Source: an uncultured Bacteroidales bacterium (GTDB lineage: Bacteria > Bacteroidota > Bacteroidia > Bacteroidales > Bacteroidaceae). Taken from it: DNA of 35,006 nucleotides. The notes beneath the pieces were generated by a model. That model saw only the letters and a list, made by a program, of their open reading frames with translations. It did not search any database and was not told where the DNA came from. The stretch lies in the NCBI GenBank assembly GCA_902779315.1, contig CACZBC010000022.1, positions 1-35,006 on the forward strand, written 5' to 3'. Each line of letters opens with the position of its first letter. The first letter of the stretch is position 1. Positions 2,888-30,481 of the stretch are shown here, piece after piece. The translations under genes were made by a program, and so were the position numbers.

Positions 2888-2965
2888 TGTTTTTTCTGAA
2901 AATTAACAACTCTTTACTTCCAACCGACCAATTCCTTGATTTTCAGGGTGGCTGGTTGCGTCTTC

Positions 2966-3075
2966 AAACGTCGCACTATACAATTCCAAACGTAACACTA
3001 TACGATTGCAATTGTCACACTATACAATCGCCATCGTCACACTAGATGTTTGCCAATGTCACACTAGATGTTTGC
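2966..3075 (+). repeat. 22-bp tandem repeat array 1 (5 units)
   Basis: Five consecutive 22-bp units start at 2966, 2988, 3010, 3032 and 3054, and a decayed sixth (CATCGTCGCTGG) follows. Units begin [AC]A[AT][ACT]GT, contain CACACTATAC or CACACTAGATG, and end in TTGC, TCGC or TTCC. With the shared GC they have dyad ends, for example GCAATTGT and ACAATCGC around the core CACACTAT. The array occupies the gap after the MscS-type gene, and its right end runs into that gene's stop codon and last codons. No intrinsic terminator is visible in the gap. Confidence 0.9.
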
Positions 3076-5725
3076 CATCGTCGCTGGTGTTGTTTTCCAG
3101 GACCTGCTGATATACGTGCAAATCTCGCTGTGGGAAAGGTATCTCGATGCCGTTCTTGTTCAGCGTGTTATATACGATTTCCTTGACTCGAGCCGTGATG
3201 ACGAGCTTCTGTTCGACAAGCATCCAAACGCAGACTTTCAGGTCGACACTGCTCTCTCCAAACTCGCTGAAGGCGACTGTGACTGGGATATTCGTGTCTG
3301 TCAGCATTTGTCCGTCCTCAGTTTTCTCATGGCAAAGAGGTTGCAAAGCCTCGATGATGAGCTGACGAACCTGCTCGACATCGGTTCCATAAGCCACTCC
3401 GACAGGAACCCTGATGAGTTCGTAGCGGTGGTTTCGCGTCATATTCTTGAAGGTCTTGCCGAAGAGAGCGCTGTTCAGGAAAGTAATCACGCTGCCGTCA
3501 TTCGTGATGATCTGCGTGCTTTGATAGGAGATGCTCTCCACCTTTCCTGCAACTCCGTCACACTCGATATAGTCTCCAACGTGAATTCGGCCAGACATAA
3601 GGCTGATTCCATAGAAGAAGTTCTCCAAGATACTCTGCATGGCAAAGCCAAGACCCGTAGCCAAACCTGCGCTCACAATGCTTATGCCATCCCTGGGAAC
3701 ACGGAAAAGAACGAGCACGATGATAACGTAAAGGCCCCAGCAAAGGATGCTGATGATGTTGCGGGCCAGCGTCTTGTTGATGGCTTCGCTGCTTCCGGAA
3801 TATTGTTTCCTGTAGTGAAGGTAGAAACTTCGCAAAGCATAGTTGACATAGCGGAAAATGAAGTAGAGTGCCGCAGCCATGCAGATTCGGAAGAGCGAAA
3901 TGCGAATCAGATTCGTTTGATTGATAATGTCGCGAGTGAAAACCTTTCGGCAAAGACTCGTCATCTCGAAAACCTGGGCCGCCCAATATATGCTGACAAG
4001 TACTGAAAGCACAGCCAGAATGGGAACAAGCGTTCGACAGAACAAATCGTAGAACCAGGTCCGATCGATGAACTCACCCTTCTTAATCTGTTTCAGCAAG
4101 GCCAGACGTTCGCTGGTGTTCGTCGTCTCAGCTCCCAAATGCTTGAGCAAGTAGCGCGATTCGTACTTCTTCGTCAAGTCATATATAAAGGTAATGGTCA
4201 TGATGGCAGCAAGCTGGAAGGTCCACCAAATCATAACCTGAACTGCAAGCAATGTGTAGCCGACCCACGCAGCAGCGCAAGCAAAGAACATTGCCGCAGT
4301 CGTAATGTTCGTATAGAACTTGTCGAGCATCGGAAGATACTGTCTGTGTCGCTTCGCCACAATGTATTGCCAAATCGCGAAGGCAAGCAAAATGGGTGGG
4401 AAGATAAGGTTGACAAGCGCATTGGGAATGAGAACAATGCGGAAAAGGATGACAATGAAGGACAAAGCCATCAAGGGCGTGTAGATAATGGCAGCATGTC
4501 TCATCTGTTCTCCCTTGAGTCGGACATATAGACTCAAGAAGATGGCTTCCAGCAACCAAGCAATATTGATGATGAGACCTGTGCCCATCTGTATGAAATT
4601 GCGTTGGACAGTAGTCCTTATTACCATTACAATGATGGCGAAAAGCGCGATCCCAACCACAAAGACAAGCATCCTTTTCCTCTCCTTAAAGTCTGGCCCT
4701 CTCCATTTCTTCGGCAAAAGCCAACGAAGGACAATGTAACTTATGCCAAGCGAAAGAGCAAGATAGAAGACGAGGAAAATGCTGATGAAGAGCACAGTTG
4801 CGCCTCTCCATTCAGAGTAGAGCTGTCCATGTCCCTCGAAAGGCTTGTACCTCAGATTGACGGTCGACTTTGCAACCATAATCTGCATTGGCAGAGTGGC
4901 AAGGATACTGAAGTAGTTGGGACCTCCGTTACGGAAGATGTTGTCCTGCAACAACTTGTATCTGCTCTGTGCAAACTTGTCAAGTTCGAGCACTTTCTCT
5001 CGAACACTTTGATAGTAGGCATTCTCTGCTTCCAGGTTTTCCAGGAAATGTTGCAGGTTACCCCGTATTGTATCGGCAAACAGCAGACAGGCATTTCGGT
5101 CTCTTTGCTGGGCTCGACTCAGGAAAAGGGGTTCTCCCATCTCCTCTTCCTCTGGTATCTCGTCCTTTGTTTCTTCGAGGATTTCCACAGATTCCTTGTC
5201 CATCGAATTGCGGGCAAAAAGCAAAGAATCCTTCTTGGCAGCCAAAGAGTCGATGGCTTGCAGCAGAATACTGTCGCTAGCACTGAGGATGCTGTCTGCA
5301 TCGATGACTGGCGGCATCCGTTTCAACGAGCGGATAAGGTAGTCGGTGCGTTCTATCTCTTGTTTCAAGCGAGCGATGAACTTGTCGTATTGCCGCATCT
5401 TGCTGTTGCGACTGTCAAGGTCGCGTCGCAGATTGGCAGCCTGTTGGCAGGCATAAGCCATATCAAAGGTATTGTCTGTCGTCTGCGAATAAAGCATCAA
5501 GCCGATTTGTTCGCATTGTTGCATGTACCAAACCAGTTGTTTATGCTGCTGCATGCCTTGCTGCTCATAGTTTTGCATAAAGGCTTGCTGCATTTCGTAG
5601 TTGGTCTGCAACTCTTCCTTGAGCACTCCTAAAGTGCGTGCCAAGTCTTTCTCCTTCAGTACAGCATTGGTGGAAACGAAGGCAGAAAGCAGTATTGCTA
5701 CCAGTAAAAAGAGGCGTTTTGTCAT
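3059..5725 (-). CDS. Large MscS-family mechanosensitive channel
   Basis: An 888-residue membrane protein. A signal peptide (about 1-21) is followed by a long Gln/Leu-rich helical periplasmic region (about 22-290) and about ten hydrophobic segments from residue 300 on. The C-terminal MscS core contains the pore-lining helix (SAGLATGLGFAMQSILENFF, about 685-708) and the beta domain beginning SGRIHVGDYIECDGVAGKVE. MscS-type channels open on membrane tension and release solutes during osmotic downshock. The size and extracytoplasmic domain resemble MscK or YbdG-like large homologues rather than the 286-residue MscS. The start lies 30 bp after the GH31 stop, so the two are probably co-transcribed. 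The stop codon and last six or so residues are encoded inside repeat array 1. Confidence 0.88.
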   Translation of the reverse strand: MTKRLFLLVAILLSAFVSTNAVLKEKDLARTLGVLKEELQTNYEMQQAFMQNYEQQGMQQHKQLVWYMQQCEQIGLMLYSQTTDNTFDMAYACQQAANLRRDLDSRNSKMRQYDKFIARLKQEIERTDYLIRSLKRMPPVIDADSILSASDSILLQAIDSLAAKKDSLLFARNSMDKESVEILEETKDEIPEEEEMGEPLFLSRAQQRDRNACLLFADTIRGNLQHFLENLEAENAYYQSVREKVLELDKFAQSRYKLLQDNIFRNGGPNYFSILATLPMQIMVAKSTVNLRYKPFEGHGQLYSEWRGATVLFISIFLVFYLALSLGISYIVLRWLLPKKWRGPDFKERKRMLVFVVGIALFAIIVMVIRTTVQRNFIQMGTGLIINIAWLLEAIFLSLYVRLKGEQMRHAAIIYTPLMALSFIVILFRIVLIPNALVNLIFPPILLAFAIWQYIVAKRHRQYLPMLDKFYTNITTAAMFFACAAAWVGYTLLAVQVMIWWTFQLAAIMTITFIYDLTKKYESRYLLKHLGAETTNTSERLALLKQIKKGEFIDRTWFYDLFCRTLVPILAVLSVLVSIYWAAQVFEMTSLCRKVFTRDIINQTNLIRISLFRICMAAALYFIFRYVNYALRSFYLHYRKQYSGSSEAINKTLARNIISILCWGLYVIIVLVLFRVPRDGISIVSAGLATGLGFAMQSILENFFYGISLMSGRIHVGDYIECDGVAGKVESISYQSTQIITNDGSVITFLNSALFGKTFKNMTRNHRYELIRVPVGVAYGTDVEQVRQLIIEALQPLCHEKTEDGQMLTDTNIPVTVAFSEFGESSVDLKVCVWMLVEQKLVITARVKEIVYNTLNKNGIEIPFPQRDLHVYQQVLENNTSDDGKHLV

Positions 5726-5755
5726 TTCTCTGGAAAATGAATGATGTGTAAAATG

Positions 5756-8731: not shown

Positions 8732-8736
8732 AGTTG

Positions 8737-11382: not shown

Positions 11383-11408
11383 TAAGCTAACATCTTTGAT
11401 TTTCCCTG

Positions 11409-11416
11409 CAAAGATA
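11409..11416 (-). promoter_or_regulatory. -7 box of the DUF4965/GH31/MscS operon
   Basis: The minus strand reads TATCTTTG, a perfect match to the Bacteroidetes -7 consensus TAnnTTTG, 27 bp before the start codon at 11382. No good TTTG -33 element is seen at the usual 19-21 bp spacing. Confidence 0.6.
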
Positions 11417-11484
11417 CATTTTTTTTCGTTCTCTTCCTAATGTTGAGGCGAAAAAGCACAAATTACCCTTCGTTAGATGCTTCC

Positions 11485-11594
11485 AAACGAGGCGTGTGAC
11501 GATTGCAAACGTCACGTTAGTAAATCACAATCGTCACGTTAGTAAAATGCAATCGTCACGTTAGTAAATCGCAAACGTCACGTGTGATGTTTCC
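11485..11594 (+). repeat. 22-bp tandem repeat array 2 (5 units)
   Basis: Units of exactly 22 bp start at 11485, 11507, 11529, 11551 and 11573, and a partial unit (CGACGTCACTG) follows. The three central units share the core CGTCACGTTAGTAAA. The first unit is inverted (GTGTGACGATTGC), creating a 20-bp near-palindrome at 11496-11515, GTGACGATT-GC-AAACGTCAC, with one mismatched pair. The last unit contains CGTCACGTGTGATG, also nearly palindromic. The array lies in the gap between the TolC-like gene's stop and the DUF4965 promoter, and no intrinsic terminator is visible there. Confidence 0.92.
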
Positions 11595-11618
11595 CGACGT
11601 CACTGTAGGGGTGAACCG

Positions 11619-12971
11619 TTATCGTGTTTTGCGTTGGTAATCGGCTAGGGCAATCTGATAGTTCGCTTTTGCCTGAGCGAGGTCGTTTTGCGCTTTGCGA
11701 TTTAAGGTTTCAGCATCGAGCAAGTCGGTCAAAGTACAGGTGCTCATGCGATATTGGTCGGATGTCATTCGCAGATTCTCTGCCGCTTCCTCACAACTGG
11801 CTTGTGCAATTTGTGTCTGACGGTAGGATTCTTGCAGATTTGTCCATGCTCTTTCGATGTCTATCTGCAACATCTGGCGTGCATTTTCACGGTCGCTTTG
11901 TGCCTCCTGAAGTTTAATTTTCTGCCGTTTCATCGCATAATTTCCACCCCACCAGTCGCTGATGGGAATGGATAGAGTTCCGAAAACGAGTCCGTTATTC
12001 ATGCTCGAGTGCAAGTACTTCTTTATATTGTCGGAGAAGTCGCCTATTCCTGTGTGATATCCGCCTATTCCTACAGCCAGATGAGGCAGGTACTTGCCGC
12101 GTTCCATCTTGACTTGCAGTTCTTGAGCTTCAACCGCTTTGCTCAACAACTGCAGTTCTTCTCGATAATCTGGCGAGAGGTTCAGCAGGTTTTCGCTGGC
12201 TTCGATGGGCTGTTCCAAAGCCTTGTCCTCGAGAACAATATCGAAATTCTTGTCTGCTTCGGCAGGTTCGATGCCAATCTCCTGTGCAAGCAAAAGGCGC
12301 AATACGTGGTCGGCATTCTCGAGTTTGAGACGGTTGCTGGACAATTCCTGCTGTCGCAATCGAACTTTCAGCAAAGAATTGCGCGTGGTTACGCCAGCAT
12401 TCAGGAAATTTTCCACCTGTTTCATCACCGCATCTACTTGTTTTTCAGCAGCATCGAGAGTGCTCAGGTTGTAACGCACACAAGCAAGTTGCCAGAAGCA
12501 TTCCGTCACTTTTTGCAACACTTCCTTCTCTGTCAATTGTTGCTTGAGCGTCATCACATCCTGTTGCAGGCGAGCAAGTTTGTTTCCATAAACAATCTGT
12601 CCGCCATAGTAGAGTGGTTGAACGAGTGTGGCAGACACAGAATATGCTCTGTTGAACTCAGAAATGCTGAACGGAGTGCCAATAAGTGGAATGAACTGTT
12701 CGCTGATGGCGGCAATCTCTTGGGGATAAGTGCCATCCGCTTTCATCAGATCGTCAAAGAGACGGAAAGCAAGAACATTGGCACTGATGCGTGGAAAGTA
12801 GTTGGTGAAGGCTTCCTTCTTTTGCATAGATGCCGCTTCAATCTCATAGGCGGCATTGCGCAGTTCGTAATTGTTCTGCTTTGCTTTTTCAAGACATTGT
12901 TCTAGGGTCAGCCTCTGAGAGAATGCGTTGAGACTGACAAGCAAACATATAGAGAAAATGTACGGTTTCAT
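11619..12971 (-). CDS. TolC-family outer-membrane efflux channel
   Basis: A 450-residue protein with a signal peptide (MKPYIFSICLLVSLNAFSQ) followed by the typical start of the mature protein, RLTLEQCLEKAKQNNYELRNA. Two OEP-type repeats of long amphipathic helices follow, the second ending in TLTDLLDAETLNRKAQNDLAQAKANYQIALADYQ, the conserved C-terminal helix pattern. It forms the trimeric outer-membrane exit duct of a tripartite efflux pump. It is the last gene of the adaptor-pump-channel operon, with 10 bp between the pump stop and its start. Its 3' flank consists of repeat array 2. Confidence 0.95.
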   Translation of the reverse strand: MKPYIFSICLLVSLNAFSQRLTLEQCLEKAKQNNYELRNAAYEIEAASMQKKEAFTNYFPRISANVLAFRLFDDLMKADGTYPQEIAAISEQFIPLIGTPFSISEFNRAYSVSATLVQPLYYGGQIVYGNKLARLQQDVMTLKQQLTEKEVLQKVTECFWQLACVRYNLSTLDAAEKQVDAVMKQVENFLNAGVTTRNSLLKVRLRQQELSSNRLKLENADHVLRLLLAQEIGIEPAEADKNFDIVLEDKALEQPIEASENLLNLSPDYREELQLLSKAVEAQELQVKMERGKYLPHLAVGIGGYHTGIGDFSDNIKKYLHSSMNNGLVFGTLSIPISDWWGGNYAMKRQKIKLQEAQSDRENARQMLQIDIERAWTNLQESYRQTQIAQASCEEAAENLRMTSDQYRMSTCTLTDLLDAETLNRKAQNDLAQAKANYQIALADYQRKTR

Positions 12972-12981
12972 CGAGTTTTCT

Positions 12982-16065: not shown

Positions 16066-16079
16066 GTGTTCCTCTTGTT

Positions 16080-17126: not shown

Positions 17127-17155
17127 AGTTTTATGTAATTTTTCTAATTCGGGTG

Positions 17156-17163
17156 CAAAGGTA
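17156..17163 (-). promoter_or_regulatory. -7 box of the efflux operon
   Basis: The minus strand reads TACCTTTG, a perfect TAnnTTTG match, 30 bp before the adaptor start codon at 17126. A -33 TTTG is not evident, which would fit a promoter that depends on an activator. Confidence 0.55.
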
Positions 17164-17205
17164 GCAACTTTTTCCCCACATTATTATATTATTATGTCGC
17201 TAAGG

Positions 17206-17254
17206 TTGTCCCATTTCTCCACATTTGTTCCCTTTTGGAGAAAAAACGAACAAA
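17206..17254. promoter_or_regulatory. Candidate operator in the efflux/AraC divergent region
   Basis: Two interlocked inverted repeats are present: TTTCTCC (17214-17220) with GGAGAAA (17237-17243), and TTTGTTC (17224-17230) with GAACAAA (17248-17254). In addition TTGTCCCATTT (from 17206) and TTGTTCCCTTTT (from 17226) form an imperfect direct repeat about 20 bp apart, the spacing expected for AraC-family half-sites. The region lies between the two divergent -7 boxes. Binding by the adjacent regulator is inferred only. Confidence 0.4.
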
Positions 17255-17293
17255 AAGAGGGGAAAAAGGTTACACGATATGAAAGAAAAATCT

Positions 17294-17318
17294 TATCTTT
17301 GTGGTGAAAAAACGGAGG
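17294..17318 (+). promoter_or_regulatory. -7 box and strong Shine-Dalgarno of the AraC-family gene
   Basis: TATCTTTG at 17294-17301 is a perfect Bacteroidetes -7 box. GGAGG at 17314-17318, 4 bp before the ATG at 17323, is an unusually strong ribosome-binding site for this group and supports that start. The leader would be very short. Confidence 0.6.
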
Positions 17319-17322
17319 TAAT

Positions 17323-18201
17323 ATGGAAAAACTCGACTTTCAGGCTATCGTGGACAGTAAATTCAACTTCCACTGGAACGAACACATCGCGTTGTTCTGC
17401 GATTTCGAGGAGGTGAGGAACCTCTCTATCTCTGATGTTCTTGTCGAAGGTTTCCTGTTTGCTGTGGTGACTCACGGCCAGGCACAGATTTCGGTTGACG
17501 ATAAGACTTATCAGTTGAAAGAGGGCGATGTCATTACCTGCAAGCCTCGCAATATCTTCGAGCGAAGCATGATGAGTATGGACTTCAATGCCTTGTTGTT
17601 GTTCCTATCGCCAGAATATGTGGCGCAGCTCTCGCAAATGGTTCGCATGGAATGGACTTATTCCACTTTCTCCACTTCCCACAAGATACTTCATGCCGAT
17701 GAAATGGCGGTAAAACGCTTCCGTTACTACTTCGACCTGCTGCAGAATCACCTCTCTTGCCCCAATTCCCCGCACAAAGAACTGAGCCTGCGTTTGCTCT
17801 TCGCTTCAATGGCTTACGACCTTCACGATTTGCATGATTTTCAGGGTGAAGAGCTTATGTATCAGACTTACAGTTCTGGCGAGAATATTTTGAGGCAGTT
17901 CATGCAGCATCTTCACGACCCGTCTCAGCCCTATCTCAACGTTAACGAATACGCAAGTCTGTTCAACATCACGCCAAAGTACTTTTCGAGTGTCTGCAAA
18001 CGGCTTACCGGCAAGACTGCGAACCAACTGATCAGCGATGAAATCGTGCGTTCTGCTCAAATCACGCTTCGAGACAGCAGCAAGAGCATCAAACAGATAG
18101 CAGCCATGATGGGCTTCAAAAACCAGTCCCATTTCGGCAGATTTTTCCGTCAGCAGACAGGCGTTTCCCCACAACAATACAGGGAAGGGAAGACACTTTA
18201 G
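17323..18201 (+). CDS. AraC-family transcriptional regulator
   Basis: A 292-residue protein. The N-terminal half (about 30-150) looks like a cupin-type sensor domain (VVTHGQAQISVDDKTYQLKEGDVITCKPRN). The C-terminal part (about 190-290) holds the two helix-turn-helix motifs of the family: YLNVNEYASLFNITPKYFSSVCKRLTG, then SIKQIAAMMGFKNQSHFGRFF and GVSPQQYR. It lies divergent from the RND efflux operon with 196 bp between starts, the usual arrangement for a local regulator, so it probably controls the pump genes in response to an unknown ligand. Its 3' flank is repeat array 3. Confidence 0.92.
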   Translation: MEKLDFQAIVDSKFNFHWNEHIALFCDFEEVRNLSISDVLVEGFLFAVVTHGQAQISVDDKTYQLKEGDVITCKPRNIFERSMMSMDFNALLLFLSPEYVAQLSQMVRMEWTYSTFSTSHKILHADEMAVKRFRYYFDLLQNHLSCPNSPHKELSLRLLFASMAYDLHDLHDFQGEELMYQTYSSGENILRQFMQHLHDPSQPYLNVNEYASLFNITPKYFSSVCKRLTGKTANQLISDEIVRSAQITLRDSSKSIKQIAAMMGFKNQSHFGRFFRQQTGVSPQQYREGKTL

Positions 18202-18237
18202 CAAGTCATTGAAAATCAGCTCGCCTGCGAAGTCCGA

Positions 18238-18392
18238 AAACGTGGCACGTGATGTTTGCAAACGTCACACTAGTAAAACGCAAACGTCACACTAGTAAAT
18301 TGCAATCGTCACACTAGTAAATTGCAAATGTCACACTATACGTTTGCAATCATAACACTATACGTTTGCAATCTTCCCACGTTATGTTTTCC
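18238..18392 (+). repeat. 22-bp tandem repeat array 3 (7 units)
   Basis: Units start at 18238, 18260, 18282, 18304, 18326 and 18348 at exact 22-bp steps, followed by a decayed 23-bp unit at 18370. The first unit is inverted relative to the rest, giving a 20-bp near-palindrome (18249-18268, GTGATGTTT-GC-AAACGTCAC). Units 2-4 carry the core CACACTAGTAAA and units 5-6 carry CACACTATACGTTTGC, so two variant types are grouped rather than mixed. In unit 5 the arms GCAAATGT and ACGTTTGC are almost perfectly complementary. It lies 37 bp after the AraC-family stop codon. Confidence 0.93.
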
Positions 18393-18508
18393 GACTTGAC
18401 ACACTAAATCTGGTGTCGTCATCTTTCGTTTGTGTCGCAAAAGCACGTCATTCTTTCCATTCAGGCAAAAAAAAGAGCTAAGAAAGTGCAACCTATCAAA
18501 AAAAATGC

Positions 18509-18516
18509 TAACTTTG
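18509..18516 (+). promoter_or_regulatory. -7 box of the CotH-kinase gene
   Basis: TAACTTTG matches TAnnTTTG perfectly and lies 41 bp before the ATG at 18557. The -33 region is not a clear match. Confidence 0.55.
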
Positions 18517-18556
18517 CCCCGCTTTATGTGCGTAAATTTGCACGCGAGCTAGACAA

Positions 18557-21500: not shown

Positions 21501-22498
21501 ATCCTGAAGACAGCGAGTGGGTGCTTATTGATGAGCGCGAAGACGATTGGACAATGGAAGCCACGAACTATACACCTTACGACTTCTATATTCCTCATGC
21601 ACTTGAATCGCTCGCTTTGGACAAGCATTCGGCTATGCTCGAAGTCGGTCAGGAAACGCAACTGGAGGCAATTCTCACGCCTGTCATCATGCAGAACATC
21701 GGCCTGCAATGGACTTCCACCAATGAAGATGTTGCCACAGTCGACCAGAACGGACACATCGTGGCAGTAGGTTTAGGTACGGCAGACATCATCCTTTCCG
21801 CTCCCAACTACAGTACCTTGCAGGACACTTGCAAAGTTACAGTCGTAGAAGAACTGCCAGGACACCGTTACTATCAGTTTGCGATAGAGGCTATTCGGAA
21901 TGGCGGTACCATCCAGTTCTCGGAGTTCGACCTCCTTGATGCTGATGGCAATGAGATAGATCCACTTACTCTTTATGCTTGGACAGGGAACTACGTCAGC
22001 AATCATCCGCAAGCAGACCTCTTCGACAACTCTCCCTACACTAAGTATTGCGGCAGTTTCAGTGTGGGCACTACATTATATATATATGTGGATGCAGGGA
22101 AAAAGGTCACACTTTCAGGCTATCGGATAACGACTGCCAACGATACCAACAAGTATCCTGGCCGCAATCCTTCTTCGTGGTCACTCTTTGGCAGCAACAC
22201 CAAGAGCGAAGTTCCCGACGACGAGGTGTGGACTTTCCTCGACCATCGCGAGAATGATAACACGCTTGGAGCAGTCAACTATACACCTTACGACTTCTTC
22301 TTCAGCTATCCTCAGCCCGTTATTCCTGGAGATGTGAATGGCGATGGAGAGGCGAATATGCTTGATTATGAGGCTCTTAAACTCTATATCGTGGGCAAAC
22401 CGGTAGAGGGATTCGTCCCTGAAGCTGCCGATCTCAATACTGATGGAAAGGTAAATGCACAAGATCTGGTGCTGCTGAGAAATATGATAATGAACTGA
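18557..22498 (+). CDS. Secreted CotH-kinase protein with discoidin-like, GLUG-like, Big2 and dockerin-like domains
   Basis: A 1313-residue exported protein (signal peptide to about residue 29; in-frame ATGs at 18557, 18572 and later leave the exact start open). Residues about 30-170 form an F5/8-type discoidin-like domain (WVGLDLGEPHVITRILYTP). Residues about 180-540 are a CotH kinase domain: KKWVLINSYRDKTLMRNPVAW, YRGTYTLADAV, and the metal-site GPIWDADLA with Asp452 and Asp454. CotH proteins are atypical protein kinases, known from spore-coat assembly and from dockerin proteins of anaerobes. A beta-helical GLUG-like stretch follows (FDGKGHTIRNLHLSGG). Two copies of a module with PGRNPSSW (Pro964, Pro1201) flank a Big2 domain (about 1037-1105). 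The C-terminus (1257-1313) has two dockerin-like calcium loops, DVNGDGEANMLD and DLNTDGKVNAQD. Confidence 0.9.
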   Translation: MTQFNMIRLMTRRLMLLLSILLTPTILRAYDPAVDQLLSGSMIYSGNETKAALAFDGSALTYYSASSSAFQWVGLDLGEPHVITRILYTPAPGSQGADRMLLSLFEGANSPDFMDAVPLYLISTKPSIGTETTAEINVSRGFRYVRYVGGTGSYGNVAELKFYGHVGEGDDSQFYQITNLPTLSIHVQDNILPMNRGEDFESQSMLIYDGGTLIQEYPILFRVRGNYSASHENKAFRMKYNDGKSHHVMRGSKNESPTKAKKWVLINSYRDKTLMRNPVAWMMSRRGERDFTPWFQVVDLVVNGDYRGTYTLADAVSVDAKRINITEMLDTDIDEESITGGYLIESDNNYSRETYHFLSGHGNQMSVHEPDEDVMQPEQFNYIRNTWNSMENVLFGSNYTDRESGLRSVLDMETFLKWFLISEFNGNTDMICQVFHYKERGDDHFYTGPIWDADLALENDQTTYPANERMDWTYKVRQAGNYGQLVSRVLSDPSVFANLQELWAKLRKKGNFEPEDVAADVDSLRNEVRASANLNFIRWPYLNQWLSLNPAVPGSWEAEVDRVRDYVRDRVAWMDEMLSYGTIRQENGIYQIGTALDLCIFSQLVNENGMIDAKAVLVGDIDMMDYNEEFKPIGLSSAAFAGSFDGKGHTIRNLHLSGGEAVGLFGYAGMCTLSNIVFDESCSAEGSRYVGMLVGYARNGTVNVSGIENHGSVTATDSYAGGIIGSGRLLATFNLTNCSNTGTITAPTSAAALVGPSAGKMTVVNSYNIGTVNGAVEGKEFAFATKSLVLNNCWDYTSTQTNNMTPAQVDNGYLCYQLNFNGGGDKWRQNLDNGRQHDPYPVLRKISGTVFEKEGRYTNINAEASTFRYYKLVVTYLQGGGSCIQFSEFDILNESLEEIPDLSVYAGGPEGFYNENWENAADNATYTKYCASFSGYAYFLFDAGSEVDPYGYRIYTANDTQSNPGRNPSSWKLYGSNTQLYDPEDSEWVLIDEREDDWTMEATNYTPYDFYIPHALESLALDKHSAMLEVGQETQLEAILTPVIMQNIGLQWTSTNEDVATVDQNGHIVAVGLGTADIILSAPNYSTLQDTCKVTVVEELPGHRYYQFAIEAIRNGGTIQFSEFDLLDADGNEIDPLTLYAWTGNYVSNHPQADLFDNSPYTKYCGSFSVGTTLYIYVDAGKKVTLSGYRITTANDTNKYPGRNPSSWSLFGSNTKSEVPDDEVWTFLDHRENDNTLGAVNYTPYDFFFSYPQPVIPGDVNGDGEANMLDYEALKLYIVGKPVEGFVPEAADLNTDGKVNAQDLVLLRNMIMN

Positions 22499-22504
22499 CG
22501 GGCA

Positions 22505-22659
22505 AAACGTGGGCAGCATCGTTGGCAAACGTAACACTATACGATCGCAAACGTAACACTATACAATTGCCAACGACACACTATATGATTGCAAACGTCA
22601 CGTGTGACGTTGAGCAATTTCACGTGTGACGCTGACAAAGTTTCCGTGTGACGCTGAAC
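22505..22659 (+). repeat. 22-bp tandem repeat array 4 (about 7 units, polarity switch)
   Basis: Units start at 22505 (decayed), 22527, 22549, 22571 and 22593, then two looser units of 21-23 bp at 22616 and 22637. Units 2-3 read GCAAACGTAACACTATAC and end GATCGC or AATTGC, forming inverted arms. At 22594-22611 lies a palindrome AACGTCAC-GT-GTGACGTT with perfect 8-bp arms. After it the core appears inverted (CGTGTGACG). The array begins 6 bp after the CotH-kinase stop, and the gap has no visible intrinsic terminator. Confidence 0.9.
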
Positions 22660-22780
22660 TGCTCACCCAATTGAACAAAAAAAGACCGGCAGAGATACTT
22701 ATTTAACCAAAAGCAGTTAAAAAACGTTAACAAAAGAGAAATAAGTGTCAACGAAAGCAAAAAGACAGAACGAAAATACT

Positions 22781-22788
22781 TATCTTTG
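22781..22788 (+). promoter_or_regulatory. -7 box of the 1720-residue surface-protein gene
   Basis: TATCTTTG is a perfect -7 consensus. It implies a 5' leader of about 100 nt, A-rich near the start codon (CAAACAAAAATG), the usual translation-initiation context in Bacteroidetes. No TTTG is seen at -33. Confidence 0.6.
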
Positions 22789-22894
22789 CTTGCTATTCGT
22801 CACTAAAATGTGGCAGAATCCGGCAATTGCGACGTAAAAACAAAGAAAATCATATTAATTAAACCAATTTATTAACTTCTAAAACCAAACAAAA

Positions 22895-25800
22895 ATGAAG
22901 AAAGTAATTACATCTTCACGCACTCTTTGGTTCGGCCTCCTCACTATGGTGATGATGCTTGCCAGTCAGAGTGCATTGGCGGAGTACGTTCCACTCACCG
23001 CTTTGTCTGGCATTGATGCTTGGTCTGGTGGCGGCGAAGACCACAAGAGTCTGGTCGATGCAAATGTCGGAACAAAGTGGGGTTGCTGGTTCGACCCAAG
23101 CCTGAGTGATGCGGAATCGTGGCCTACGAACACGGACAATTCCAGCAACATCTGCTATATTATCATTAAGGCAGAGAAGGCTGTAGTTCCCGAGTACTAC
23201 TTCCTTGTTACAGGTAACGATACAGGTGGCAATCCTGGCCGTAACTGGGCTACATGGAAGATTTATGGCGGTAACTTCGCAAGCGACGACTTGGCTGTTC
23301 GCAATGGCGAAGGATGGACACTCATCGACGATAAGGAAGATGAGCCCCTGCCGGCAGCAAACACCAAGGAAATCACACTCGACTTCAGCGAGCCTACAAC
23401 AACCGCTTTCCAGTATTTCTGGATTGAGATTGAGAAGACTGTGGAGGATGCCGATGTTTATCAGCAGATGAGTGAATGGGGTCTTGGTTCTTATGGCGAC
23501 TTCCAGAAGTATCTCAAAGACCTTGCTGATGCAGGTACTGGCATTGACGAACCTGTACGTCTCAATGTCCTCGAGGGAACTAAGATGACAGGTAATGAAA
23601 ACTTGCCTATGCTTTTCGACGGCGATGTAACGACCAAGTGGGGTAATGGCTTGACCAACAGAAATGAAGGTGAGACAGCCAATGGCGCATACTTCATTGT
23701 CAAGGCTTCTCGTTCTATGCTGCCCACATACTATGCTCTGACTACAGCCAACGATACTCAGCAGTATTCTGGCCGTAACTGGAAGCAGTGGCAGATTTAT
23801 GGCATGAATGCCGATAGCGACGAGGCTGTAAAGCGTGATTCTGAAGGTTGGGTTGCTCTCGACAAGAAGTACAATGTCGGCAGAGATCAACTTCCAGCAG
23901 CTAACTTCACTCAGGTATTCTTCACTCTTTCCGAGGACAACGAAACTGAGTACAGATATTTCAAGCTGGAGCTCGACCAGATTATGACTAGCGGCGATTA
24001 CATGCAGATGGCTGAGTTCGCTTTGGGCGACCAGTACACACTTGCATTGGATCTGGATGCTATTGCTTCGTCTGCAGAAAGTGACTTCGATCCCGACATT
24101 TTCGCAGAGAAAGCTCAGCTCGACAAGATGGTTGAAATCATAGCAAACGTAAAGGCTTGCACCGATCCAGCGCAGTTAGGTTCGCTGAGAACGGCTATCG
24201 ACAATCAGAAAAAAGTGATTGAACAGTCTGCTGCAAGCTATGCAGAACTGATTACTGCTCGCAATCAGATTGTCAATGCCATCGATGGTGGCAAGCTTTC
24301 TGACGAAGCTGTCGCTTATCTGACAGCATGGATTAGCGAGACTGATCCTATCGCTCCAAATGAGGACTATCCTGTTGGTAACCTTGCTTACCTCAAGGCT
24401 AACCGCCAGATTACCGGTGCAGAAGCTGTGGCTGAGGCAAACCGCATCAATTCTTACCTCATCAACAACAGCGAAACAGATCCTGCCATCTATGCTACAT
24501 ACGAAACAATCGTTGATGCAAAAGGTTTCAACGAAGGTGAGTACGGACATGGTCTTATCGATGGTGACCGTGATGGTACCAAGTGGTGTGCAAACACCAG
24601 CCACCAGCCATGGGTTCTTGTCTTCAAGGCAGACACTCCCATCCAACCTACATACTATGGCCTTGTGACAGGTGGTGACACCTCCAGCTATCCTGGCCGT
24701 AACTGGAAGAGTTGGAAGATCTATGGCGCCAACTTCGATGAGCCTGTGGAGCCTGTCATGATGGACGATCCAGACTTCTCGAGCAAGGCTGATGCTATCC
24801 GCAACTCCGATGCTTGGGTTCTCATTGACAACAAGGTCAATATCGGCAGCGACATTCTCCACACAGAGAGCCTGTTTGAGAGCTACCTTTATCTGTCCGA
24901 AGGTTGTGCAGTTCCTTATGAGTACTTCAAGATTGAAGTTTCTGCAGCAGGTAGTGGCGACCTCATTCAGATGAACGAGTTCACATTCTACAACACAGGT
25001 AACCTGTTCGAATATCGTGAAAGCTTCGTAGATGAGTTCGTTGATTATGATCCAGCAGAAAGACTTGCTTATGGCGAGGACATCGATGCTTATAAAGATA
25101 AGTTCGAGGAACTGCAGACCACTGTTAACGCTCCCGATGTAATGAAGCTCAGGAACGAACTGACAGCTCTCCAGAGCCAGATTGAAGCATCTGCTGACAA
25201 GTACGAAGAGTACGAGGCTATTTACGAAGAAATTCCAGGTCTCGACATTCCTTCTGAAAGCCTGACTGCTTGGCAGACTGGCTACACCACAGAAAATGTA
25301 GCTCCCGGCAGCATGTACATTCGTGGTACTCACGACAATATCGTTAACACCGAGACCAACTATGGTTCTCTTGATAACGATCAGCTCCAAGCTGAGATTG
25401 ATTACCTCCAATGGATTATCAATGCAGTAGACGAAAGCAACGATTGTCACTACATCCTGCTTGGCGGTAACACAGTAAGTCAGTTTGGTGACGGCTTCTA
25501 TGGTCACCTCATTGATGGTATCGCACTGAACACAACAGAAATTAATGAAGAGACAGGCGAAGAAGTTGAAGTCAAGGCTACCAAGTGGGGCGGCTCACCC
25601 GATCCCGATGGTAATACCTACATCATCTTCCGTACCCTCGACAAGACCAATCCGTTCTTCTACACTCTGACAACAGGTAACGATGCAGCTTCTTATCCTG
25701 GTCGTAACTGGGGCACTTGGTACATCTATGCCGCTAACTTCGAAGGTGACGGCGACGCCACTAAGGATGCTGAGGGATGGGTTCTCGTTGACGCTAAGGA

Positions 25801-28057
25801 AGACACAGGTCAGGACCGTCTGCATCCCGTAAATGCACAGCCTTCTTACTTCGGCTTCAGCACCGAGACCACCGAAGAGTATACATATTATAAGGTAGTC
25901 GTAACGAAGGCTTACAACGGCTCTCAAATTCAGATGAACGAAATCTACTTCGGTACAGAAGAAGAGTTTGAGGCAATCAAGGCTGAGTACACTGCTGCTG
26001 CTCAGGAATTCAACACTGATGTTACAGCAGAACAAGCTCTCATTGACGAATATGAGGCAACAATTCCTGACATTGACGAGTGCGCTAACATGGAGGCTCT
26101 CTTCCGTGTGAACTACGCTCTTGAAACTCTCCGCGATAAGATTGAAGCAAGTGTTGCTACATACGAGAAGTATCAGAACACAGTTGAAGAAGCTAAGGCT
26201 TACCTCGCAGAGAATGGCTTTGCTGAAAGCGAAGCTCTGACAGTCTTCCAGAACTACCTGAATGGTGATGTTGCTGAAGGCCCATCAGAACTCTATCCTA
26301 ATGGTGTTGCTGCTTACATTGTCGACGAGCACACTTTGGCAGACAGCGTTATTCTCGAAGAAATTGAGTTCCTGGAATCCTTGAAGGTTGCTGCTGTTGC
26401 TGCAGGTTATGGTCCTGGCATGGAGATTACTCCTCTCATTGTCAACCGTACCTTTGCAAAGGCTGGTGACATGCTGAAGGATGAGGCCGGTAACAACGTT
26501 GGTCGCGAGGCTGAAGGTTGGGACGGCTACATCTATCGTAGCAATAACGATGGCGAAAGCGACGTTTACGCAGCTGAGTTTTGCAACGTAAACGCTAAGT
26601 TTGATGTCAGCCAGACACTCACAGACATGAAGCCCGGTTACTATAAGGTAACTCTCAATGCCGGCTATCGTGCTAATGGCGACGATAAGATGCTGAGCTA
26701 CAACTATGCAGCTATGGCATACGCTAACGAAATCGCCACTTATGTTCCTGTTATTCGTGAAGGTGCTGCTGACGACGAGCAAGCTTGGAAGGGCGCTTAT
26801 GCCGACAAGCAGATCTACAGTGCTGACTCTACTGAAACATTCGGTTGGGGTATCTGGGGTTGCGAAGGTGCTGCCCATGCATTTGCACAGGGCCGCTATG
26901 CAATCACTATGGTTGCTAAGGTAACTGATGGCACTCTGACTATCGGCGTGAAGAACGAAGGCACTCAGGGCAACGAATGGACCGGCGTAGGTAACTTCAA
27001 GCTCTGGTATCTCGGTGAAGAAGCAACTGCAGAGGCTCTCGAAGAGGCTGCTGAATACAATGCTGCTCGCGTTGAAACGTTGGCAAAGTATCTGGAAGAA
27101 TCAGAAGGTACAGAGGCTGAGAACTACAGCTTGGCTCCTGGCTTCGGTGCTGTTCAGATGACTACGCTCCAAGAGAATGGTGCTGCTACCTATGAAGCTG
27201 AAAAGATCATCGGCGAGACCATGCAGTCTATCTACGAAACGAAGAAGGCTTACCTCGCTCTCTACGAGGCTTCAGAAAAGGTTTACCTACATTGGATTGA
27301 CTACTATGTTCCAAAAGAAGGTGAAGAAGGTCTCGACGAAGCAATCTTTGGCGTAAGAGAGAATCTTGACGAAGGTGCATACGCTGATGCCGAAGCTACT
27401 CTCGCAGCAAAGGCTGAACTCTATGCAACATGGCCCGACTACCTGCAGTTGAAGCAACCCACAAAGGTTGATGTATCACAGTCAGACTTCACATTCGACC
27501 TTGAATCAACTGGTTCAAGACCTAACCTCGACCTCGCAAACATCTATGAGCCTCTGGAAAAGGATGAGACAATCCTTGCCTTCGACTATACTGCTGAGCA
27601 GGATATCGAGAATGGCGTGATCATGTACAATACTCCTCAGCTGATGACTGATGTCAGAGAGCAACTTGCTACTCTTCCCGCAACAAGCGAAATGACTACA
27701 GTTTACGTCAATGTTGCAAAGGGTATTAAGCAGCTCGGCTTCGGTACTGCTGTAGATCATGGTATCCGTTGGTACATCAACTACAATGCCGGTGCAGAAG
27801 ATGTTCTTAAATTAGTTGCCCAGAACTTCCGCTTCATTACGAAGGCAGAGATGAAGGCAGCTGGCGGCAAGCCTCTGAATGGTGAGGTTGGTGATGTGAA
27901 CGATGACGGTGACGTTTCTATTGCCGACGGTGTAGCTGTTCTGAACGCAATGGCAGGTCAGGATGTTCCTGGTGATGCTGATGTGAACGGCGACGGTGAC
28001 ATCTCTATTGCCGACTTCGTAGCAGTCCTCAACATCATGGCAGGACAAGGACAATAA
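22895..28057 (+). CDS. 1720-residue modular secreted protein with four PGRN modules and a dockerin-like C-terminus
   Basis: I do not recognise an enzymatic domain. After a signal peptide (to about residue 29, TMVMMLASQSALA|EYVPL) there are four discoidin-like modules of about 170-180 residues. Each has 'TKWG' or 'TKWC', a segment like YY.LVTGNDT..PGRN..W.IYG.NF, 'GW.L.D.K.D', and an aromatic 'Y.YFK.E' strand. The PGRN signature is at residues 114, about 292 (SGRN), 600 and 935. Modules are separated by acidic, Ala/Glu-rich helical linkers with recurrent I.AS...Y..Y patterns. Residues about 1175-1390 form another beta-rich, CBM-like region (MKPGYYKVTLNAGYRANG, VGNFKLWYLGEE). The end (1663-1720) carries two dockerin-like loops, DVNDDGDVSIAD and DVNGDGDISIAD. 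It is probably a surface binding or scaffold protein. It shares modules with the preceding CotH-kinase protein. Confidence 0.85.
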   Translation: MKKVITSSRTLWFGLLTMVMMLASQSALAEYVPLTALSGIDAWSGGGEDHKSLVDANVGTKWGCWFDPSLSDAESWPTNTDNSSNICYIIIKAEKAVVPEYYFLVTGNDTGGNPGRNWATWKIYGGNFASDDLAVRNGEGWTLIDDKEDEPLPAANTKEITLDFSEPTTTAFQYFWIEIEKTVEDADVYQQMSEWGLGSYGDFQKYLKDLADAGTGIDEPVRLNVLEGTKMTGNENLPMLFDGDVTTKWGNGLTNRNEGETANGAYFIVKASRSMLPTYYALTTANDTQQYSGRNWKQWQIYGMNADSDEAVKRDSEGWVALDKKYNVGRDQLPAANFTQVFFTLSEDNETEYRYFKLELDQIMTSGDYMQMAEFALGDQYTLALDLDAIASSAESDFDPDIFAEKAQLDKMVEIIANVKACTDPAQLGSLRTAIDNQKKVIEQSAASYAELITARNQIVNAIDGGKLSDEAVAYLTAWISETDPIAPNEDYPVGNLAYLKANRQITGAEAVAEANRINSYLINNSETDPAIYATYETIVDAKGFNEGEYGHGLIDGDRDGTKWCANTSHQPWVLVFKADTPIQPTYYGLVTGGDTSSYPGRNWKSWKIYGANFDEPVEPVMMDDPDFSSKADAIRNSDAWVLIDNKVNIGSDILHTESLFESYLYLSEGCAVPYEYFKIEVSAAGSGDLIQMNEFTFYNTGNLFEYRESFVDEFVDYDPAERLAYGEDIDAYKDKFEELQTTVNAPDVMKLRNELTALQSQIEASADKYEEYEAIYEEIPGLDIPSESLTAWQTGYTTENVAPGSMYIRGTHDNIVNTETNYGSLDNDQLQAEIDYLQWIINAVDESNDCHYILLGGNTVSQFGDGFYGHLIDGIALNTTEINEETGEEVEVKATKWGGSPDPDGNTYIIFRTLDKTNPFFYTLTTGNDAASYPGRNWGTWYIYAANFEGDGDATKDAEGWVLVDAKEDTGQDRLHPVNAQPSYFGFSTETTEEYTYYKVVVTKAYNGSQIQMNEIYFGTEEEFEAIKAEYTAAAQEFNTDVTAEQALIDEYEATIPDIDECANMEALFRVNYALETLRDKIEASVATYEKYQNTVEEAKAYLAENGFAESEALTVFQNYLNGDVAEGPSELYPNGVAAYIVDEHTLADSVILEEIEFLESLKVAAVAAGYGPGMEITPLIVNRTFAKAGDMLKDEAGNNVGREAEGWDGYIYRSNNDGESDVYAAEFCNVNAKFDVSQTLTDMKPGYYKVTLNAGYRANGDDKMLSYNYAAMAYANEIATYVPVIREGAADDEQAWKGAYADKQIYSADSTETFGWGIWGCEGAAHAFAQGRYAITMVAKVTDGTLTIGVKNEGTQGNEWTGVGNFKLWYLGEEATAEALEEAAEYNAARVETLAKYLEESEGTEAENYSLAPGFGAVQMTTLQENGAATYEAEKIIGETMQSIYETKKAYLALYEASEKVYLHWIDYYVPKEGEEGLDEAIFGVRENLDEGAYADAEATLAAKAELYATWPDYLQLKQPTKVDVSQSDFTFDLESTGSRPNLDLANIYEPLEKDETILAFDYTAEQDIENGVIMYNTPQLMTDVREQLATLPATSEMTTVYVNVAKGIKQLGFGTAVDHGIRWYINYNAGAEDVLKLVAQNFRFITKAEMKAAGGKPLNGEVGDVNDDGDVSIADGVAVLNAMAGQDVPGDADVNGDGDISIADFVAVLNIMAGQGQ

Positions 28058-28076
28058 TCTCTCAGACTACTCTATC

Positions 28077-28113
28077 ATTCTCTTGGTCAGGCCTCGTGCC
28101 TGACCAAGAGAAT
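28077..28113 (+). terminator. Perfect 16-bp stem-loop between surface-protein and fasciclin genes
   Basis: ATTCTCTTGGTCAGGC (28077-28092) and its exact complement (28098-28113) enclose a 5-nt loop CTCGT. Only a short T-rich stretch (ATCTTTA) follows. It may be a partial terminator, or an mRNA-processing or stability element that lowers expression of the downstream fasciclin gene relative to the 1720-residue protein. Confidence 0.75.
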
Positions 28114-28150
28114 ATCTTTAAATTAAGTAACACCTATTTATATTACAACA

Positions 28151-30310
28151 ATGAGGAAGCTCATTCTTACACTCTCAACGTTATTCTTTATCATCTGTTC
28201 TTGTACGGAAGACATTGATACATCTGCGCGCTATGTCTTTACGGAATATACAGTTGCCAGCTATCTTGAGGCACACGCAGACTATTCACAGTATCTCGAA
28301 CTGACAAAGTTGGTGCCTGTGAGTGGTAGGAGTAAGTCTTCCGTCTACCAGCTCCTGACGGCGCGTGGTAACTATACATGCTTTGCACCCACTAATGAAG
28401 CGATTAATGATTACCTGAAAGACTTGGTTGAACAGGGATTGATTAACGAACCTTCGTGGGATGCTTTTACTGACGAAAGGAAGCTCGACTCTATCCGTAA
28501 GGTTGTCGTGCTTAACACGGTTATTGATGGTGGCGATATGGAATCGCAGCGATACACCATCAACCTTATTAATTCAATTGGATACGGAAAAGAAAATGCA
28601 GAGTTCCCTCTGCCTAATATATATGACCACAAGCTGACTGCCAGCAAGAGCAAAGGAGATACAATCTACCTTGACAAGGAGTGTCCTATGGACCCTGTCA
28701 ATTGTGACATTCCTGTCATCAATGGTGTCATCCACCAGTTGCACAAGGTTATTGCTCCGAAGGACGAGTCTTGTGCCCGTTATTTGCAAGTTATCCTCGA
28801 TGAGAAGCGAGAGGGCTATCTGATGATGGCCAGGGCGTTGCAGGCTTGCGGCTTTATGGACACGCTGAGCAAGGTGCGCGATGAGGCTTACGAAGCGCTT
28901 TACCAAGCAGAAGGTGAGAACCTTGACATGAAGGATTACCAGTCGAAGGGTGGAGGCGACATGTCTGCTACGGCTGGAGACCCGGATGCACATGCTCCAG
29001 AGCACAGAAAATATGGTTTCACGATTTTCAGCGAGACAGACGAGTTTTGGCAGTCGCAAGGAATTGATCCGACGGCTTCTGATGCTATTGAGAGGTTGCA
29101 GAACTGGATCGTGACAAACAACATGTACCTCAGCGATGGCGGTTATCAGGCTGACAACAACTACACTTCTCCCAAGAACATGTTGTATCAGTGGGTTGCC
29201 TACCATGTGTTGCCCATGAGAATTCCTGCCAACAAGTTGGTGCACCATTGCAACGAGTTGGGTTACAGCTACAGTGCTCCTACCAGATACTCCATCCCAG
29301 TCATGGAATGGTATCCGGTGTTTGGAGGTGGCCGTTTGATTAAGATATACGAGAGTGCTGAGAGTAATGGTATATACCTGAATACTTTCCCTGAAAGAGA
29401 CAATGGTATAACTGGAACTGGACACGAGAGCTATTGCGCTCCTGAGAAGCGTGGCGTTCTTATCGAAACGAATAGTGAAAAAGCGATAGTTACTGACATT
29501 GTCAATGCCTGCATCTATCCCATAGACAAGCCTCTGGGATATAATGATGTCACGCGTGATGACTTAGGCAAGGAACGTATCCGCTTCGACCTGTTTGCCC
29601 TCTTCCCCGAAGCCATTACCAATGGCATTCGCCGTGCTGACAGCCCGCTCGGCAAGTGGCAGCATGTCTTTGTCTCTCTCTACAACAGGTATAATTATTT
29701 CGACAACATGAGAATCATGAATGAGGAAACGCACTTCATTCATTATAATGGTTACAAGACACCTTGGGCTAACTACAGTGGTGACGAGGATAAGGCTTTC
29801 GGACATTTTGATATCATTTTCAAGTTGCCTCCTGTTCCCAAACGCAACACATACGAGTTCCGTTACAAACTGCTTGCCACTGCTGCTCGCGGCATTGTGC
29901 AGGTTTACTTCGGTAACAATCCGGACAAACTCCCAGTAGCCGGCATTCCTATTGACATGACGAAGAATGTGGAAGTCTTCTTTGGCGAAGGTGCAACGTG
30001 GGGAGACTTGTCGGACAACGGTAAGGATGAAGACCAGATTATCGACATTGACCATAAGCTCCGCAATCACGGCCTGATGAAGGCAACGAAGCACGAGACG
30101 GAGATGAGTGCCACTGCTACTGCCCGTTCGAAGAACAATTGTAGCCGACACATCATTGTGCGTCAGACACTCGATCCTAGCGAGACCTATTATGTCCGCT
30201 TCAAGTCTGTGCAGCCCGACCTGACACGTCCTGAACTGTACCTCGACTACTTCGAGTACTGTCCGAAGGAGATATATGACAGCCCCGAAAAGCCGGAGGA
30301 TATCTGGTGA
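28151..30310 (+). CDS. Fasciclin-domain surface lipoprotein
   Basis: A 719-residue protein with a lipoprotein signal (LSTLFFIICSCTED, Cys18 as probable lipidation site). Residues about 30-220 match a fasciclin (FAS1) domain: YSQYLELTKLVPV, GNYTCFAPTNEAINDYL and the closing INGVIHQLHKVIAP. A second, more diverged FAS1-like region with an insertion covers about 225-500 (YGFTIFSETDEFW, SPKNMLYQWVAYHVLPMR). The C-terminal part (about 500-719) is beta-rich and not recognised. In Bacteroidetes such lipoproteins often accompany SusC/SusD pairs and are thought to assist glycan binding or adhesion. None is present here. The gene follows the 1720-residue protein by 93 bp with a stem-loop in between, so partial co-transcription is likely. 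Confidence 0.85.
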   Translation: MRKLILTLSTLFFIICSCTEDIDTSARYVFTEYTVASYLEAHADYSQYLELTKLVPVSGRSKSSVYQLLTARGNYTCFAPTNEAINDYLKDLVEQGLINEPSWDAFTDERKLDSIRKVVVLNTVIDGGDMESQRYTINLINSIGYGKENAEFPLPNIYDHKLTASKSKGDTIYLDKECPMDPVNCDIPVINGVIHQLHKVIAPKDESCARYLQVILDEKREGYLMMARALQACGFMDTLSKVRDEAYEALYQAEGENLDMKDYQSKGGGDMSATAGDPDAHAPEHRKYGFTIFSETDEFWQSQGIDPTASDAIERLQNWIVTNNMYLSDGGYQADNNYTSPKNMLYQWVAYHVLPMRIPANKLVHHCNELGYSYSAPTRYSIPVMEWYPVFGGGRLIKIYESAESNGIYLNTFPERDNGITGTGHESYCAPEKRGVLIETNSEKAIVTDIVNACIYPIDKPLGYNDVTRDDLGKERIRFDLFALFPEAITNGIRRADSPLGKWQHVFVSLYNRYNYFDNMRIMNEETHFIHYNGYKTPWANYSGDEDKAFGHFDIIFKLPPVPKRNTYEFRYKLLATAARGIVQVYFGNNPDKLPVAGIPIDMTKNVEVFFGEGATWGDLSDNGKDEDQIIDIDHKLRNHGLMKATKHETEMSATATARSKNNCSRHIIVRQTLDPSETYYVRFKSVQPDLTRPELYLDYFEYCPKEIYDSPEKPEDIW

Positions 30311-30332
30311 TGTAAAGAGCTGATTATCAAGC

Positions 30333-30371
30333 AGGCGTGCTTTTATGTAGGTAAGGGCACGCCTTGTTTGT
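30333..30371 (+). terminator. Probable weak terminator after the fasciclin gene
   Basis: An 8-bp stem AGGCGTGC (30333-30340) / GCACGCCT (30357-30364) with a 16-nt loop is followed by TGTTTGT. The stem is GC-rich but the T-tract is poor. Repeat array 5 begins about 20 bp downstream. Confidence 0.5.
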
Positions 30372-30393
30372 GAACACAACGTGGATAGTTTTC

Positions 30394-30481
30394 AAACTTC
30401 ACACTAGTAAATTGCAATCGTCACACTAGTAAATCGCAATCGTCACACTAGTAAATCGCAATCGTCACTGCAGTTGTTTGA
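30394..30481 (+). repeat. 22-bp tandem repeat array 5 (4 units)
   Basis: Units start at 30394, 30416, 30438 and 30460. The second and third are identical, and the first differs from them at only three positions (AAACTTC for AATCGTC, and TTGC for TCGC). The fourth is decayed after CGTCACTG. A possible relic precedes the array at about 30372 (CAACGTGGATAG). All intact units have the core CACACTAGTAAA. The near identity of neighbours points to recent duplication. The array ends about 34 bp before the GH29 start codon. Confidence 0.93.

Follow-up and report, generated by a model that had tools for sequence, protein, structure and literature searches.

Evenly spaced arrays of dyads phased at 22 bp, near species-specific in sequence, after genes in a rumen Bacteroidaceae group: an apparently new class of sequence element and possible chromosome boundary mark

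Porphyromonas gingivalis is a member of the order Bacteroidales, as is the uncultured bacterium whose DNA we describe here, a window of 35,006 nucleotides (the whole stretch analyzed, contig CACZBC010000022.1 of assembly GCA_902779315.1) that holds five arrays of a 22-bp, partially palindromic tandem repeat. The BrickBuilt miniature inverted-repeat transposable element (MITE) of P. gingivalis occurs in 19 copies with up to 22.8 repeats of a 23-nt period, flanked by a leader and a tail with terminal inverted repeats resembling those of IS5-family elements (PMC4596501). Repetitive extragenic palindromes (REPs, such as the GTAG- and CGTC-tagged ones) and bacterial interspersed mosaic elements (BIMEs) are short clustered palindromes with a proposed gyrase or supercoiling role (PMC3733652). 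In plasmid assays, LacI bound to tandem lac operators forms topological barriers whose half-lives are about two hours (PMC4725879).

The arrays of the window resemble each of these systems in part. Like REPs and BIMEs, they are short intergenic palindromes, often located after genes, clustered and organized in species-specific families (PMC3733652), but they differ by their main period of 22 bp, their even spacing, the absence of any detected REP-associated tyrosine transposase (RAYT), and the presence of several half-sites per genome, the design being kept while the sequence turns over. Like BrickBuilt, they are intergenic tandem repeats of about two helical turns, without spacers and with predicted stem-loops, in the order Bacteroidales (PMC4596501); unlike BrickBuilt, in a comparison of layout, no shared flanks were found for them, and they are shorter and far more numerous. 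The tandem lac operators offer an analogy, that of tandem sites for a protein blocking supercoil diffusion, which we propose as a working model for the arrays (PMC4725879), although lacO arrays are engineered with a known protein whereas those described here are natural, genome-wide and associated with a putative one. Clustered regularly interspaced short palindromic repeats (CRISPR) are likewise tandem and partially palindromic, but here the units follow each other head to tail with a period of 22 and no spacers, in hundreds of short arrays, so that the exclusion of CRISPR in the first-pass annotation of the window was correct. That annotation, made from the sequence alone, knew of no described family of this kind, in agreement with the absence of any Rfam match at gathering score in the window and of any description of such arrays in the literature searched, which consisted mostly of listings and abstract openings and covered few subscription papers. 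REP/BIME with RAYT, BrickBuilt-type MITEs, CRISPR and intrinsic terminators each fail on at least one defining feature tested. We regard the arrays as new as a class of sequence element, and not by function.

Tandem Repeats Finder recovers 22-bp (or 44-bp) arrays at all five sites of the window (Table 1), and in the five gaps the self-match score at lag 22 is 35.8–66.0; shuffling each gap 200 times never raised it above 10.2, and the remaining lags between 15 and 30 stay at 9.6 or less. The five arrays are thus genuine and far above chance, with limits slightly wider than those first given, and they form a single repeat family with a period of two helical turns. CACxxTA cores lie on the plus strand in 5/5 arrays, whereas the upstream gene is on the minus strand for arrays 1 and 2 and on the plus strand for the other three. 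Their initial placement in intergenic gaps holds except for array 1, which overlaps the end of a gene and is not strictly intergenic. The inverted ends of 8 bp initially described are present as arms, but these are mostly imperfect: none of 21 core-pattern units pairs at 8/8 positions, and the best reach 7/8 (at 3008 and 18324).

The unit is by no means restricted to the window. In the whole genome to which it belongs (G000, a 2.83-Mb assembly, 84% complete, of which the window is contig 22), GTCACACTAGTAAA with up to two mismatches has 407 matches, compared with 17 for the reversed control. We detected 98 arrays of 2 to 9 units each in 790 kb of G000 (8 of them, at the edges of contigs or gene calls, were left without a gap assignment) and 0 in the reversed control, and a more sensitive detector retrieved 143 arrays in 1.09 Mb, approximately one per 7.6 kb; the arrays of this genome number in the hundreds. 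The position matrix built on G000 turned symmetric on iteration, and genes were called with a simple dicodon open reading frame (ORF) caller instead of a standard annotator. A two-unit pattern (up to one mismatch) matched in 8 of 139 genomes of the genus, with 309 matches in G000, 130 in G098, 101 in G100 and 6, 6, 3, 2 and 1 in five others, the reversed control giving 0 in all. The exact unit sequence is thus a feature of a few related species, nearly species-specific. Two contigs of the IMG/VR collection, L290 (12859–12937) and L292 (7679–7757), which have a gene stretch in common, contain one G000-type 22-bp array each; if they are truly phages, as the collection says, then a phage carries a host-type array.

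By contrast with the unit itself, its layout of dyads with a 22-bp period appears again in other members of the genus, as searches of related genomes revealed. In the gaps orthologous to those of arrays 1 and 3, other species hold 22-bp arrays of different sequence but with the same layout: TAACACGTTA in G008, CCGCACGCGG in both gaps of G127 and of G027, CTCCACGGAG in the array-3 gap of G126, and CCCACGTGAT-like units in G036. The unit type in orthologous gaps, whether TCACACTAGT-, TAACACGTTA-, CCGCACGCGG- or CTCCACGGAG-type, varies by species, and no lag-22 segment was found in the stretches from G088, G115 and G160. At gap 3, G100, which is 87–89% identical to the window beside the gap, has TAACACGTTA-like units, in G000 CACACTAG and CACACTAT units predominate, and G098 has a mixture, a series that looks like stepwise replacement. 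A census of 22 genomes found TCACACTAGT only in G000, G098 and G100, CCGCACGCGG only in G127 and G027, and CTCCACGGAG only in G126, with TCACACGTGA and TAACACGTTA in several groups. Sequence alone, which fails between species, was rejected as the conserved entity. The gap of G126 orthologous to that of array 1 (L148) contains a different short repeat, with a period of about 10 bp (CTTATAGGACTTATGTGACTTATAGGAC), and a similar-looking stretch exists in G080.

The period itself is recovered without recourse to any given sequence. A sequence-blind scan of 20 stretches from 19 genomes of the genus (396 kb) yielded 21 segments at lag 22, where each of the other lags between 8 and 43 gave 0–5, and 11 of the 20 have at least one lag-22 segment; the choice of these stretches preceded their lag scan, but most were centered on contig positions of earlier pattern or gene matches, so that some contain a chance match to the unit pattern or a window-like gene. 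The intergenic DNA of G000 has 131 segments at lag 22 versus 2–18 at lags 18–21 and 23–27, lag 21 being the second commonest (18). Some arrays have nothing but the dyad in common from unit to unit, with linkers that vary, as for GACCATGGTC in G138, ATTCGTGAAT in G004 and likewise in G330, which suggests a constraint on dyad and phase and not copying alone. Local duplication happens, as indicated by the greater similarity of adjacent units in G000 (0.72) than of units two apart (0.66) or in different arrays (0.60).

The arrays are also evenly spaced along the chromosome. Relative to a null matched for the gene orientation of the gap and the length of the upstream transcription unit, pooled pairs of arrays less than 3 kb apart are depleted about seven-fold (7 observed versus 49.7 expected) and pairs at 5–7 kb are in excess (64 versus 42.7), in a pooled test that is not fully independent because orthologous regions count in several species. 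G000 alone has 5 pairs below 3 kb versus 32.9 expected. Successive spacings below 4 kb make up 13.9% of 122 in G000 (32–37% expected), 15.8% of 19 in G098 and G100 (36–47% expected), 16.7% of 18 in a mixed set of other genomes (31–47% expected), and none of 33 in four other species, where the minimum is 4.2 kb and 25–29% were expected. For these counts and those of gap occupancy, we merged arrays separated by less than 60 bp and excluded those mostly within called genes; unlike arrays that adjoin in a single gap (G127 near 109.0 kb, G017 near 9.7 kb) consequently count once. The frequency of arrays does increase with the length of the upstream unit, a real but modest effect, and since the repulsion survives the matched null we rejected spacing as a by-product of unit length.

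Position relative to genes is equally characteristic. Arrays usually lie within about 60 nt of a stop codon; in the tandem gaps of G000 they start a median of 24 nt after the stop and end a median of 150 nt before the next start. Among G000 gaps of at least 50 bp, they occupy 38/65 convergent, 80/269 tandem and 14/87 divergent ones, and in four other species together 12/24, 21/108 and 5/33, respectively. These positions are partly conserved. At the ends of orthologous genes, G000 compared with G127, G024, G017 and G080 (18 pairs) shows 8 pairs with an array in both members, 1 with an array in G000 alone and 9 without any, whereas the comparison with the mixed set (26 pairs) gives 9, 9 and 8. 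In species outside the close trio of G000, G098 and G100, and with window-chosen stretches excluded, 46 pairs divide into 7 with both, 5 with one and 34 with neither, for 2.0 with both expected by chance; with those stretches included, 219 pairs divide into 70, 80 and 69, for 55.3 expected. These last two sets leave out orthologues that are less than 55% identical or have over 20 unaligned residues at the C terminus, and the counts are not independent because some loci are common to several pairs.

The dyads appear to matter in DNA. Selection for RNA stems predicts G-U over A-C mismatches, yet at mismatched dyad positions on the transcript strand of 141 tandem-gap arrays we counted 85 G-U versus 84 A-C (99 arrays of G000, G098 and G100) and 22 versus 23 (42 arrays of other species). 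Without such a bias the dyads look selected in DNA and not in RNA, a DNA-level reading that is fairly well supported, and RNA hairpins were discarded as the selected feature, together with the chain of RNA stems that had been suggested at first.

These properties suggest protein-bound markers that partition the chromosome of this rumen Bacteroidaceae group. Our tentative reading, a serious possibility that still falls somewhat short of being probable, is that the arrays are helically phased protein-bound boundaries between transcription units or supercoil domains. An array would then be a double-stranded DNA element of 2 to 9 short dyads whose centers lie 22 bp, or two helical turns, apart, so that dimers of a putative protein could sit side by side, perhaps cooperatively, on one face of the helix; the first-pass suggestion that a DNA-binding protein would find sites in phase is thereby supported as a possibility. 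Covered with protein, such arrays, most of them past stop codons and a minority between divergent promoters, at distances of about 5–7 kb, would act as roadblocks that insulate neighboring transcription units and stop the diffusion of supercoils, and the chromosome would thereby fall into domains of roughly 6 kb. The location after genes, the occupation of some divergent gaps, the enrichment in convergent ones, the independence of gene direction and the even spacing together favor a boundary over a pure terminator. Several observations weigh against this reading, beginning with the putative status of the bound protein. Only 224 of 891 eligible gaps have an array, and positions are conserved only in part, 80 of the 219 orthologous pairs (window-chosen stretches included) being discordant. 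In G000, 4 of the 122 spacings fall short of 1 kb, and the 18 spacings of the mixed set show no reduction under 2.5 kb (11.1% versus 11.5–17.0% expected). Several unrelated dyads coexist within one genome (G127, G017, G080), and the best-axis dyad pairing has a median of 58% of arm positions in G000, G098 and G100 versus 76% in other species; these two observations are the main difficulties, since they would require more than one protein or a protein with only a loose reading of symmetry and phase, and a single sequence-specific protein would not account for the unrelated dyads. Finally, plus-strand counts of G-U versus A-C in gaps without a sense direction (18 versus 34 in the convergent gaps of the G000 trio, and 6 versus 11, 9 versus 12 and 6 versus 7) show imbalances that make the wobble test noisy.

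A more far-reaching version of the boundary proposal, which we consider somewhat more doubtful, is a chromosome-partitioning code that resides in geometry and not in a fixed sequence: arrays of dyads phased at two turns, about 6 kb apart after genes and passed down within a genus at partly fixed places, with a half-site rewritten genome-wide in each species. Such a code would arise if a rapidly evolving architectural DNA-binding protein, or protein family, co-evolved with its hundreds of sites.

That the arrays are instead only transcription-end elements, which stop RNA polymerase or stabilize mRNA 3′ ends as protein roadblocks or RNA hairpins and owe their spacing to the layout of units, seems unlikely, despite their strong bias to sites just past stop codons and to convergent gaps and their growing frequency with upstream unit length. 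Array RNA does fold more stably on average than shuffled sequence (five sets of 2 to 30 arrays, mean z −2.7 to −6.7), which speaks for this idea, but any dyad gives a lower folding energy. Terminator-like hairpins are somewhat commoner with arrays in the tandem gaps of other species (17/42 versus 41/163 without), but in their convergent gaps the figures are 12/35 versus 23/53, and in G000 such hairpins are about as frequent with as without arrays (32/71 versus 21/43 in convergent gaps, 21/74 versus 40/159 in tandem ones). As these hairpins show no clear difference between gaps with and without arrays, we rejected the arrays as substitute intrinsic terminators. The lack of wobble bias in the transcript sense, the arrays in G000 divergent gaps, where there is no gene end, and the repulsion that survives a null matched for gap class and unit length also speak against a role restricted to transcription ends.

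Equally improbable in our estimation are selfish REP- or MITE-type repeats that a transposase has multiplied and that persist after genes, where they are tolerated, but disappear from other places. The near species-specific bursts would suit them, with the high counts in three relatives, 1 to 6 matches in five genomes and 0 in 131 of 139, as would the 262 + 277 matches in one of 21 species of another genus. In common with REPs and BIMEs, the arrays are short intergenic palindromes of species-specific sequence. However, among 10 genomes the Y1_Tnp domain of RAYTs (PF01797) matched at E ≤ 0.001 only in G126 and in none of the three array-rich ones, G000, G098 and G100, whose assemblies are 79–86% complete, so that a RAYT could lie in a missing piece; with no such transposase found, an origin from RAYT and REP was not retained. 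Nor do the arrays have common ends: no shared terminal inverted repeats, leader or tail emerged from 286 G000 flanks, whose outward consensus carries almost no signal (no position among 40 exceeds 0.15 bits) and whose commonest 8-mer, TTACCTTG, occurs in 8 of the 286. Direct matches of at least 6 bp across array ends, of the kind that target-site duplication leaves, show a weak excess (19/143 versus 11/143 for mismatched ends) that would suit mobile repeats. A MITE with terminal repeats was rejected on the flank consensus, the direct-repeat signal being weak. Moreover, arrays are often kept in orthologous gaps while their sequence changes, and in G127 arrays of unlike sequence in different gaps are also at least 4.2 kb apart (there are few such pairs, and two unlike arrays stand back to back in one gap), a distance not predicted by target immunity of one element or by recombination between copies. 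The motif TACCTTGC, found in 6 of the 286 array flanks of G000 and in no array-free gap, is a small unexplained feature.

A mutational by-product, in which slippage and near-palindrome correction would create functionless palindromic tandem repeats at weakly constrained sites after genes, agrees with the greater similarity of adjacent units in G000 but is highly unlikely in view of the one main period in unrelated sequences, the constant dyads with unrelated linkers, the even spacing and the one half-site agreed genome-wide.

It has long been asked how the bacterial chromosome comes to be divided into domains only a few kilobases long, and by what their borders are marked. If the arrays are protein-bound boundaries, they would provide countable natural marks at the DNA level, with a preferred spacing, phased on the helix and rewritten in each species, making border marking directly testable, and they would represent an unusual case of concerted genome-wide change of binding sites at partly fixed positions. 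Should their function differ, the spacing rule and the conservation of a design independent of sequence would still require explanation.

Outside the genus, such arrays recur at least occasionally, with a period of 21–23 bp, not always 22. In G330, from another genus of the family, the half-sites CTACAA and TTGTAG alternate every 11 bp with variable 5-bp spacers; the steps at 32 loci are 131 and 104 of 11 and 48 of 12, some counted repeatedly because the loci partly overlap, and the pattern has 262 + 277 matches in G330 versus 0–1 in 20 other species of its genus. G054, from another family of the order, has two 23-bp arrays (CTCACAAGTTTGTCAGTTTTTAC, with the dyad ACAA-GT-TTGT) 1.4 kb apart in 20 kb (L195, 8238–8261 and 9654–9700), and G186 has 23-bp dyads after guaA. 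A strict ruler of 22 bp was rejected because of these 23-bp cases and of the lag-21 segments of G000. No identity-level 22-bp array was found in the guaA regions of 30 genomes from 27 other genera (guaA of G000 has one) or in eight stretches of 3–8 kb from other genera, which could make G330 an exception. Stretches from 18 other families of the order likewise have no lag-22 segment (18 usable ones, 246 kb, after dropping two that were all N). Another genus (G174; L270, 516–572) shows three TCTCCAGCCTGGAGA-like dyads spaced 21 bp upstream of guaA.

Table 1. Arrays of the window and ORFs used for comparison between species
Feature	Coordinates	Strand	Content	Position or use
Array 1	2964..3099	.	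about 6 units of 22 bp	overlaps 3′ end of minus-strand ORF 3059-5725, about -41 nt from stop
Array 2	11471..11594	.	about 5 units, cores CACGTTAG/CACGTGTG	stop of minus-strand ORF 11619-12971 24 nt away, array downstream
Array 3	18236..18391	.	7 units	starts 34 nt past stop of ORF 17323-18201
Array 4	22520..22657	.	about 6 units	starts 21 nt past stop of ORF 18557-22498
Array 5	30390..30479	.	4 units, three near-identical	about 80 nt past stop of ORF 28151-30310
ORF	3059..5725	-	888 aa	array 1 overlaps its 3′ end; anchor for cross-species comparison
ORF	17323..18201	+	292 aa	upstream of array 3; anchor for cross-species comparison

Among the genes next to the arrays, we take ORF 11619–12971 to be TolC-like and ORF 17323–18201 to be AraC-like. 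A long inverted repeat with 16-nt arms (ATTCTCTTGGTCAGGC and GCCTGACCAAGAGAAT) and a 5-nt loop lies at 28077–28113, between ORFs 22895–28057 and 28151–30310, in a gap where no 22-bp array was detected. ORFs 18557–22498 (1313 aa) and 22895–28057 (1720 aa) terminate in repeats such as GDVNGDGDVSIADGVAVLN, presumably of the type I dockerin kind.

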